Below are positions 7,047 through 46,236 of a DNA stretch of 46,337 nt, one piece after another. The notes beneath the pieces were generated by a model. The model ran no database searches. It saw only the letters and a list, made by a program, of their open reading frames with translations, and was not told where the DNA came from. Location of the stretch: positions 1 to 46,337 of the forward strand of contig MEXP01000010.1 of assembly GCA_001773725.1 (NCBI GenBank). Direction: 5' to 3'. This DNA comes from Candidatus Amesbacteria bacterium RIFCSPLOWO2_01_FULL_49_25. GTDB taxonomy: Bacteria; Patescibacteriota; Microgenomatia; CAZETR01; Amesbacteraceae. Position numbers and translations under genes: made by a program. Each line of letters begins with the position of its first letter. Position 1 is the first letter of the stretch.

Positions 7047-8629
7047 CTAAGGCGATTATTTATTGCCGTGTGAGTTCGGATAGGCAGGTTAAAGAGGGAC
7101 ATGGTTTGGAAAGCCAAGAGGAAAGGTGCAGAAACTATGCCAAGAGTCAGGGATATCAAACAATTGACGTGTTTCGGGACGAGGGAGAAAGTGGTGGTTT
7201 GTTTGAGAGAACGGGAATGAAACAAGTTTTAGCTTGCTTAGAGCAGTACTTAGTGGAACCCGAGAAGGTGGTAGTTGTTTTTGATGACCTGAAAAGGTTC
7301 GCAAGGGATACAGAGGTTCACTTTGCCCTTAAAAAGGAAATTTACAGCAGGAATGGAAGGGTTGAGAGTCCTAATTTCAGGTTTGAAGATACGCCCGATG
7401 GAAAGTTTGTGGAGACTGTAATGGCTGCGCATGCTGAGTTGGAAAGGAATCAAAATAAAAGGCAGGTGATTCAGAAAATGAAGGCTAGATTGGAAATGGG
7501 ATGTTGGCCATTTTGTTCACCTCCTGGACTTAAGCACATAAAGACGGAGGCTTATGGAAAGGTGCCTATGCCAGTGGAGCCAATAGCAGGAATACTGAAA
7601 GAGGCGATTGAGGGGTACAAGGATGGATTGTTACTGACACTGGATGAGGTCAGAAGATTCATCCTACGCAAATATGAGCAACATGGAATTGATAGGAAAT
7701 TATCACTACGGGGCGTGAATGATATTTTGACTGAACTTTTATACACAGGATGGGTTGAATATTTACCTTGGGGAGTGTCTCTGAGGGAAGGGAGAGGCGA
7801 AGGATTTATTTCACTGGAGACCTACAAGACTGTTCAGGAGATATTGCGGGGAAAGAGAAAACCTAGGCTAAGGAATGATTACAATCTGGACTTTCCTGCG
7901 AGAGGAATAGTGGCTTGTATGGGTTGTGGGAAGCCTTTGACTGCCAGTTGGAATACAGGACGGAATAAAAGGTATCCGAATTATTGGTGCAAGTCTGTGG
8001 GTTGCCAGTACAGGTATAAAACTATGGCCAGGAAGACGTTGGAGGGTGATTTTGCGGTGTTACTTAAGAAACAGGAAGTGCCAGCAGGGGCGTTTGATTT
8101 GGCTGCTGATGTGTTGCTGGATATATGGGTACAGAAGAAATTGGAGGAGACGGCAGTTATAGTACAGACTGACAGAAAGACAGCCGTGCTTGATGGTTTG
8201 ATAACTAATTTGACAGCCAGGGTGGCAAGAACATCGGATGAGACGCTAGTGGAAAACTACGAGAAAGAGTTGAAGTCGCTAATGGCTAAGAAGACTGAAT
8301 TGGAGGTTAAGGATAAGGGTCAGAGATACACCGATGAACAGTTTGGAACCGCTTCTAGAAGAGTGATGGAAACACTAAAAGACCCCTTGGCGATGTGGAA
8401 TAGTGATGAGTATGAAGACAAGAGAATCATCGCGGATATGTATTTTGATGAGAGACCCAAGTATGATTACCGTTCAGGATTTGGAACCGCTAGTTTGGCT
8501 CTTCCTATAGCCATTATTCGTGACTGCGAGGGTGAAAAAGAGCGTTTGGTGGAGATGGGGGGAGTTGAACCCCCGTGTGAATTAGGATTGAGACACGTTT
8601 GTACAAGCTTGTTGTTTTTGACTAACTAG
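7043..8629 (+). CDS. Large serine recombinase (integrase) of the element
   Basis: This 528-residue protein begins with a resolvase catalytic domain (residues 1-150). The nucleophile is expected at Ser11 in IIYCRVSSDRQ, and DDLKRFARD carries conserved basic and acidic residues. A recombinase domain follows (about 160-265). A zinc-ribbon with CMGCGKPL and CKSVGCQYR lies at about 290-330, and a coiled coil at about 370-430, the usual layout of large serine integrases. It catalyses site-specific integration and excision through a Ser-DNA link. The reading frame runs past the attR repeat, so its last residues (GVEPPCELGLRHVCTSLL..) are encoded by antisense tmRNA sequence. In a circular form the end would instead read VLDYIYPVE and stop. 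Confidence 0.93.
   Translation: MTKAIIYCRVSSDRQVKEGHGLESQEERCRNYAKSQGYQTIDVFRDEGESGGLFERTGMKQVLACLEQYLVEPEKVVVVFDDLKRFARDTEVHFALKKEIYSRNGRVESPNFRFEDTPDGKFVETVMAAHAELERNQNKRQVIQKMKARLEMGCWPFCSPPGLKHIKTEAYGKVPMPVEPIAGILKEAIEGYKDGLLLTLDEVRRFILRKYEQHGIDRKLSLRGVNDILTELLYTGWVEYLPWGVSLREGRGEGFISLETYKTVQEILRGKRKPRLRNDYNLDFPARGIVACMGCGKPLTASWNTGRNKRYPNYWCKSVGCQYRYKTMARKTLEGDFAVLLKKQEVPAGAFDLAADVLLDIWVQKKLEETAVIVQTDRKTAVLDGLITNLTARVARTSDETLVENYEKELKSLMAKKTELEVKDKGQRYTDEQFGTASRRVMETLKDPLAMWNSDEYEDKRIIADMYFDERPKYDYRSGFGTASLALPIAIIRDCEGEKERLVEMGGVEPPCELGLRHVCTSLLFLTN
8544..8561 (+). repeat. attR direct repeat (18 bp)
   Basis: This is an exact copy of 3555-3572. It overlaps the 3' end of the tmRNA gene (acceptor stem and CCA) and also lies within the recombinase frame at codons 501-507. 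Integration therefore regenerates a complete tmRNA gene. Confidence 0.9.
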
Positions 8630-8899
8630 TCTTTCCCCACTTTGGTGTTAGTCAGACTTGGCGGGGGCATCTCGATTGGTTGTCACCCCAGGCTGCAGTC
8701 GAGAAAGGAGCTTTGGGATGCTCATTATCACGCTTAAGCGTAAAGATAACGAGAAGCGTAGTTCGGCTCTCTAAAGAGGGCTTTGGCTACGCGTGTCAGT
8801 TTCTTTTTGACACTTGTGCTTGAGCCTGTTTTACGAGTATGGTTCAAACTCGGCTTGACGTGTTTTCAAAGGGCTAATTCAGCGAATCCCGTCATCCCC
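8547..8899 (-). ncRNA. ssrA: tmRNA (SsrA)
   Basis: On the minus strand the 5' end GGGGATG (8899-8893) pairs with CATCTCC near the 3' end (one G-U pair), followed by discriminator A and an encoded CCA. The T-arm GGGGG-TTCAACT-CCCCC is present, and the 353-nt length is normal. It rescues stalled ribosomes together with SmpB. The best tag frame reads AKALFREPNYASRYLYA and ends at TAA (8732-8734) inside an ACGCTTAAGCGT palindrome. It ends in YLYA rather than the usual ALAA. A -10 like TATACT lies 13 nt upstream of the mature 5' end, so RNase P processing is expected. The 3' end is antisense to the recombinase gene. Confidence 0.93.
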
Positions 8900-45638: not shown

Positions 45639-45910
45639 CTCCCCCGGGAGGATTCGAACCTCCAACCTCGTCCTTACAGTAACCCTCTTGTTACCAAAAG
45701 GTCTGGACTATCTCATTCCCGATTAAATCGGGATCGGGTATATAGTCTCTACACATTTCTCCTCTTTCAAAGAGTTTAGCTCGGGATAATCCTACTAAGC
45801 ATTAAGCAAAGTAGGAGTTCCCCGAATTAGCCCGATTTTCCATACCGTCTTTCGGCGGTACGCTGCCTATTTTCCGACAGGGACTCGCTCTACCATTGAG
45901 CTACAGGGGA
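45639..45910 (-). tRNA. tRNA-Asn(GTT) with group I intron
   Basis: The two exons, 45877-45910 and 45639-45676, join to a tRNA with acceptor TCCCCTG/CGGGGGA (one G-U), D-arm GCTC/GAGC, anticodon arm with loop CTGTTAA and T-arm GGAGG-TTCGAAT-CCTCC. The anticodon is GTT. U1-A72 and discriminator G match E. coli tRNA-Asn. CCA is not encoded. The intron lies between anticodon bases 35 and 36. Confidence 0.9.
45677..45876 (-). ncRNA. Group I intron in tRNA-Asn
   Basis: The 200-nt insert has the marks of a group I intron. P1 forms between exon-intron CTGT|C and GGCAG (45867-45863), with U-G at the 5' splice site. The last base is G (45677). P7 is likely GACTA (45747-45743) with TAGTC (45710-45706), in the context AGAGACTA and AGATAGTCC, and CCCGATTAAATCGGG (45718-45732) forms P8. 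It carries no open frame and is too short for one. It should self-splice with guanosine. Confidence 0.85.
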
Positions 45911-45936: not shown

Positions 45937-46236
45937 TCATTGGGCCACTACAGCCAATCCCGACTGTACTTCTCTATGGCAATTGGCGCATAGCAAAATA
46001 CATTTACTTATCTCATCTTTAATTTTCTCCCACGATCGTGTATATCCCTTATCGCCTATTCCAAAACTTTTTTTACCGACATGGTGCAACTCCAAAGCAC
46101 GAACGCATTTGCTATAGCCACAAATTTGACATTTGCCTCCTTTGTATTCTATTGCCATTTCCTTCACTTTTCGTCTTCTTTTAGCCACTGCTTGAATCAT
46201 GTATCTACTCCTATCAGCGTAAGTTCTCTTACCCAT
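45937..46236 (-). CDS. HNH endonuclease
   Basis: The 99-residue protein has a zinc-binding HNH domain: CQICGYSKCVRALELHHVG, GYTRSWEKIKDEISKCILLC and ANCHREVQSG. The Cys pairs and the HH/H residues fit a McrA-like HNH nuclease. A basic N-terminal helix (RSRYMIQAVAKRRRKVKEM) may contact DNA. It lies on the same strand just 26 bp upstream of the intron-containing tRNA-Asn gene, raising the possibility of a free-standing homing nuclease. Confidence 0.88.
   Translation of the reverse strand: MGKRTYADRSRYMIQAVAKRRRKVKEMAIEYKGGKCQICGYSKCVRALELHHVGKKSFGIGDKGYTRSWEKIKDEISKCILLCANCHREVQSGLAVVAQ

Follow-up and report, generated by a model that had tools for sequence, protein, structure and literature searches.

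A tRNA-Asn(GUU) gene of Candidatus Amesbacteria is split within its anticodon by a group I intron, and an open reading frame (ORF) for a putative HNH endonuclease, whose homologues occur almost exclusively at tRNA-Asn genes, adjoins it. We explain this layout best by collaborative homing, in which the HNH protein would probably be a homing endonuclease specific for tRNA-Asn that is paired with the ORF-less intron. The adjacent HNH gene is more informative than the intron itself.

A group I intron in the anticodon of tRNA-Asn

In the window, that is, the whole stretch of 46,337 nucleotides that was analysed, the tRNA-Asn(GUU) gene occupies the minus strand from 45910 to 45639 and carries a 200-nt group I intron between U35 and U36 (Table 1). 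The intron starts with CGGAAAA and finishes with ACTG, its first base C standing directly after GU and its omega-G directly before U36-A37-A38. When the exons were joined, ARAGORN called a tRNA-Asn(gtt) of 73 nt, a cloverleaf with the GUU anticodon. Its discriminator G73 is the base expected for tRNA-Asn, and the CCA end is not encoded. On the unspliced gene ARAGORN called no tRNA, and both a plain ARAGORN scan of the whole window and the Rfam tRNA searches missed it; tRNA finders run with no intron option miss tRNA-Asn in Patescibacteria genomes that carry the split gene. With introns allowed, ARAGORN mis-spliced the gene into a Thr(tgt) call, which was rejected, and the splice sites were therefore placed from the U, the G and the stem pairing.

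Table 1. Features of the split tRNA-Asn gene, its intron and the adjoining HNH gene (window coordinates).
Feature	Position	Strand	Details
5′ exon, tRNA-Asn(GUU)	45877..45910	-	acceptor 5′ strand to U35; TCCCCTG...CTGT; from sequence and ARAGORN on joined exons
Group I intron	45677..45876	-	200 nt, no ORF, omega-G at 45677; RF00028 65.4 bits, covariation in 39 homologues
3′ exon, tRNA-Asn	45639..45676	-	U36 to discriminator G73; TAAGGACG...CGGGGGAG; from sequence and ARAGORN on joined exons
P1	45863..45880	-	exon CUGU and intron C (45880-45876) with IGS GGCAG (45867-45863); U.G at splice site
P2 hairpin, GAAA loop	45843..45860	-	double changes in 7/7 pairs; 92.6% of cells paired
P3, 5′ strand	45831..45836	-	partner 45738-45733; double changes in 4/6 pairs
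P4-P5	45781..45825	-	P4 45825-45820/45786-45781; P5 45816-45810/45796-45790
P6/P6a	45753..45780	-	P6 100% paired; P6a 75%
P7, guanosine-binding helix	45706..45747	-	45747-45743 with 45710-45706; P3 3′ strand and P8 (45732-45718) between
P9, GUAA (GNRA) loop	45684..45701	-	double changes in 6/7 pairs
Free-standing HNH endonuclease gene (putative)	45937..46236	-	99 aa; PF01844 22.8 bits; homologues in or beside tRNA-Asn

The Rfam group I model RF00028 matched minus-strand positions 45684-45886 over all of its 253 positions (65.4 bits, cut-off 50, E=1.8e-14). The covariance-model search proposed in the initial annotation thus recovered the full core, and together with the call on the joined exons it bears out the claim of a group I intron splitting the tRNA-Asn(GTT) anticodon; the boundaries, the insert length and the 35/36 break given there were right to the base, and the terminal G, P7 and P8 were as described. 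With the core P3-P8, the guanosine site in P7, the U.G at the 5′ splice site and the terminal G, the element is a group I intron. To analyse its structure, the window intron and 38 homologues were aligned and the pairs of P1 to P9 were counted. Standard pairs filled 90.3% of the cells, compared with 72.3% in shuffled alignments and 35-51% with slid partners, while changes on both sides of a pair occurred in 348 cells against 96.5 in shuffles. Covariation in these 39 introns was strong in P1-P6, P8 and P9; in P4, for instance, 97.4% of the cells were paired and double changes were found in 5/6 pairs. In P1, the pairs made with the exon were constant in 39/39 introns; among them is the splice-site U.G that had been noted from the sequence (U12.G23 in local numbering). 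The pair formed by the first intron base covaried (C-G, G-C, A-U, G-U, U-G). P7 was invariant in the 39 rows and therefore gave no evidence from covariation, but full conservation. Taken alone, the window intron folds far below shuffled sequences (z=-5.2). The P2 and P9 hairpins end in GNRA loops, and the AGAGACUA/AUAGUCC motifs were seen as well; the intron may thus belong to subgroup IC3, as tRNA anticodon-loop introns of the Azoarcus type do. The structure predicts that the intron splices itself in the cell.

The genome is a metagenome-assembled genome (MAG) of 958 kb in 30 contigs with a completeness of 97.3%. None of its 43 other tRNA hits carries a GUU anticodon, and the uninterrupted tRNA-Asn gene that the initial annotation had named as evidence against its own reading is absent among them. 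Very probably, therefore, this genome has no source of tRNA-Asn but the split gene, whose transcript would need splicing. An incomplete MAG of many contigs, and a locus so close to a contig end (101 nt beyond the HNH gene), might raise the suspicion of a pseudogene or assembly artefact, with a normal tRNA-Asn gene in the unassembled part. We consider this highly improbable, since the exons, the splice sites and the ribozyme core are fully conserved, relatives share the arrangement and some single-contig genomes have the split gene too.

Other RNA genes were observed in the same genome. It has two tRNA-Trp(CCA) genes (G000:C1:33217-33287 and G000:C25:47601-47671) and a tRNA-Ile(UAU) gene (G000:C1:39272-39343). 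A second group I intron (G000:C1:852-1117, minus strand, locus L002) reads as lying in 23S rRNA, near a conserved AACTATAAGG/TAGCGAAATTCC segment. The tmRNA gene (window 8547-8899, minus strand) has the predicted tag VKKKLTRVAKALFREPNYASRYLYA, with RYLYA at its end where an ALAA-like sequence is usual.

Distribution of split tRNA-Asn genes

Group I matches were found in 35/59 relatives. The loci fetched comprised nine split tRNA-Asn genes, the window's counted, about eight Met(CAU) tRNAs and a remainder that was mostly rRNA. The Met(CAU)-type introns recur (L037, L040, L041, L043, L047, L049, L053, L055) and apparently lie after U33, directly before the anticodon. An exact pattern, the 5′ half of tRNA-Asn where UAA does not come next, matched at least 114 stretches in the contig collection; this one pattern yielded at least about 100 tRNA-Asn genes split at 35/36, mostly in Patescibacteria. 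Among the matches listed, 106 loci could be resolved (with a few repeats from the whole-genome set), and 105 of them had the 5′ U, G|UAA and both P7 motifs. Other carriers among the matches listed were MAGs named WOR-3/Stahlbacteria, Omnitrophota, Margulisiibacteriota and Elusimicrobia, and chromosome-scale MAGs of WOR-3 and Omnitrophota also carry the split gene. Carriers with unexpected names, for example a Pacearchaeota or a proteobacterial MAG, may stem from contigs that were binned wrongly. In an unselected sample 6/30 tRNA-Asn genes were split, a figure that is not an occupancy rate because the strict pattern admits only genomes with a fitting tRNA-Asn 5′ half. Two Yanofskybacteria MAGs each had two split genes (L100 and L161 in PLYL01000024.1; L111 and L129 in MGJA01). 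Searching plasmid and phage records for intron-like DNA returned only a 29-base tRNA match.

Asn is therefore a common host of group I introns, though absent from the published lists consulted, in which the bacterial tRNA hosts are Leu, fMet, Ile2 and Arg (PMC8450103, PMC4033280). The description of Asn as an unusual host in the initial annotation agrees with those lists but does not hold in nature, given the number of MAGs with the gene split at 35/36. In many Patescibacteria a required anticodon probably depends on ribozyme activity.

An HNH family at tRNA-Asn genes

The stop codon of the HNH ORF lies 26 nt before the tRNA-Asn gene on the same strand, and its match to PF01844 stands just above the cut-off of 21.4 bits. 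The ORF is intact and retains every residue that is invariant in the family, as judged from a 14-row alignment: the presumed zinc-binding Cys4 set C36/C39/C83/C86, H51 and H52, N85 and H87. There is one copy of the family in the window's genome, and no close relative of the protein was found in PDB or NCBIfam. The long tRNA-Asn introns of other species (about 470-607 nt) mostly encode a homologue that is 53-73% identical. Within these introns the ORF occupies loop L1, downstream of the 5′ splice site and ahead of the IGS, and its 3′ end mostly runs into the GCAG of the IGS, hence the recurring C-terminal ‘TQLP’.

We determined the placement of the family using a search profile built from the 14-row alignment. 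Hits were obtained in 10 of the 280 class genomes and in 40 of the 380 phylum genomes searched. Six divergent hits (G026, G305, G328, G325, G245, G295) were set aside, leaving 42 close homologues, one of them at a contig end. All 41 placeable copies were at tRNA-Asn on the same strand and none was elsewhere in these genomes. Inside the tRNA-Asn intron lay 31 copies, three of which have a stop-to-stop ORF that starts in the exon. Seven lay 17-53 nt upstream of a split tRNA-Asn gene, so that a free-standing HNH gene beside the host gene of an ORF-less intron is found in the window and in six further genomes (G003, G006, G045, G620, G089, G297); the copies of G003 and G620 are pseudogenes. The remaining three, all from Patescibacteria, were upstream of an intact tRNA-Asn gene (G013, G092, G118; loci L217, L242, L250). 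On viral contigs, 48/62 distinct copies were directly beside tRNA-Asn, 34 of them directly upstream (three at split genes) and 14 directly downstream. As a control, other PF01844 ORFs from 59 class genomes were placed; only 1/24 was within about 100 nt of tRNA-Asn, which rules out that every HNH gene sits by tRNA-Asn.

The control exception (L354, in G034) is an HNH-domain ORF of another kind, which follows a split tRNA-Asn gene at a distance of about 95 nt. Phage tRNA arrays (L265-L344) hold HNH relatives beside mostly intact tRNA-Asn genes, and a few beside or in split ones. Divergent relatives were seen by tRNA-Gln (L221) and tRNA-Trp (L264, where the ORF enters the 5′ part of the tRNA) and, in antisense orientation, in other tRNA introns (L260, L262, L263). 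Another HNH subfamily (CK.HG...KHF) occurs near split tRNA-Asn genes (L120, L133, L136, L173, L174), mostly upstream and antisense.

This placement bears on two other explanations. One is that the HNH gene is an independent free-standing homing gene aimed at the sequence just 5′ of tRNA-Asn, where its own insertion would prevent cutting, with the intron a mere neighbour. The copies of phage tRNA arrays and of the three Patescibacteria that adjoin an intact tRNA-Asn gene would fit; the coupling to the intron, with 31/41 close homologues inside it and seven beside a split gene, is not predicted, and we hold this explanation to be unlikely. The other is that the intron is an old immobile resident and the adjacent HNH gene a leftover of a former in-intron endonuclease with no present role. 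Most of the tRNA-Asn intron loci have no HNH gene, and broken copies occur both within the intron (L168, L078, L130) and upstream (G003, G620). Against it stand the intactness of the window ORF with all its invariant residues and the closely related free-standing copies that recur in several lineages and in phages, and we judge it improbable to a similar degree.

In a tree of 56 HNH proteins (93 columns), most deep forks were open, and the tree did not fix whether the HNH gene had entered the intron or left it. The window protein grouped with the Amesbacteria copy of G006 (support 100/97). Copies upstream of split genes were scattered, and the well-supported branches force at least three changes of position; a single origin of the upstream position was thus not supported, though most forks are open.

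Proposed collaborative homing and comparison with known systems

Collaborative homing, our preferred explanation, would proceed as follows. Splicing of the intron would restore the GUU anticodon, while the HNH protein would cleave one or both strands of tRNA-Asn alleles that lack the intron. Repair from the intron-bearing locus would copy the intron into the cut allele, co-conversion of a short flank would carry the HNH gene along, and the intron would shield the donor's own tRNA-Asn gene from cutting. In other lineages the same endonuclease, residing in L1 of the intron, would form a composite mobile intron. The nuclease activity, target sequence and homing of the putative enzyme are predictions. 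The HNH pseudogenes are as expected of decaying homing genes and are no proof of activity. The copies beside intact tRNA-Asn, those of the three Patescibacteria and most of the phage copies, do not fit a strict rule that the intron protects the donor; either these hosts would have another protection, or the target would span the insertion point of the HNH gene, or the enzymes would be inactive or of other specificity.

Whether a single tRNA-Asn HNH family spans all stages of the proposed path to a mobile intron, beside intact genes (mostly in phage arrays), beside split genes (as in the window) and within the intron with the ORF entering the guide, seems to us evenly balanced. If so, collaborative homing would be seen for the first time in a cellular system, and the stages would form a natural series for the joining of introns and endonucleases. 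The way in which mobile introns arise from ORF-less introns and endonucleases is debated; with the three expected states at one target and in one protein family, it becomes possible to test which event came first and whether the intron is protective.

The kind of intron is already known. Like the introns of cyanobacterial Leu(UAA) and fMet and of proteobacterial Ile(CAU) and Arg(CCU) tRNAs (Azoarcus type), this one is about 200 nt long, ORF-less and located in the anticodon loop, with a U.G in P1, an omega-G and GNRA loops in P2 and P9. It differs from them in its host, tRNA-Asn(GUU) at 35/36, in its occurrence mostly in Patescibacteria and in the adjoining free-standing HNH gene. Inserts of 22-49 nt have also been claimed for cyanobacterial Arg, Gly and Lys tRNAs (PMC5733544). 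CPR rRNA insertion sequences include abundant group I introns, many with LAGLIDADG or GIY-YIG homing endonucleases (PMC11270868). They resemble the present case in that group I introns interrupt structural RNA genes in the same phylum, and differ in host and enzyme type; tRNA is absent from that text. tRNA group I introns, of the same kind and in the same phylum, have been noted in CPR genomes; the parts available to us name neither the isotype nor the site nor an endonuclease (PMC8172020; review PMC9698310). No published tRNA-Asn group I intron was found in a literature coverage that was partial, most subscription journals lying outside it; the Asn host and the intron-HNH pair are apparently new, with priority uncertain.

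The closest parallel is F-CphI, which cyanophage S-PM2 encodes next to a psbA gene that contains an intron (PMC6083498; review PMC3984707). In collaborative homing, an enzyme encoded outside the intron attacks the gene where the intron is lacking, the donor is shielded by its intron, and enzyme gene and intron spread together (PMC6083498; PMC3984707). The review describes only two phage systems and predicts that such an enzyme, whose specificity already matches the insertion site, could enter the intron and create a composite mobile intron (PMC3984707). The in-intron HNH copies look like this predicted product. As with F-CphI and psbA, an ORF-less group I intron is found with a free-standing endonuclease gene by the interrupted gene. 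Unlike F-CphI, which is of the Endo VII type and acts on phage psbA, the present system involves a cellular tRNA gene and a putative HNH Cys4 enzyme known from its sequence, and the in-intron, adjacent and intron-free stages all occur in one HNH family.
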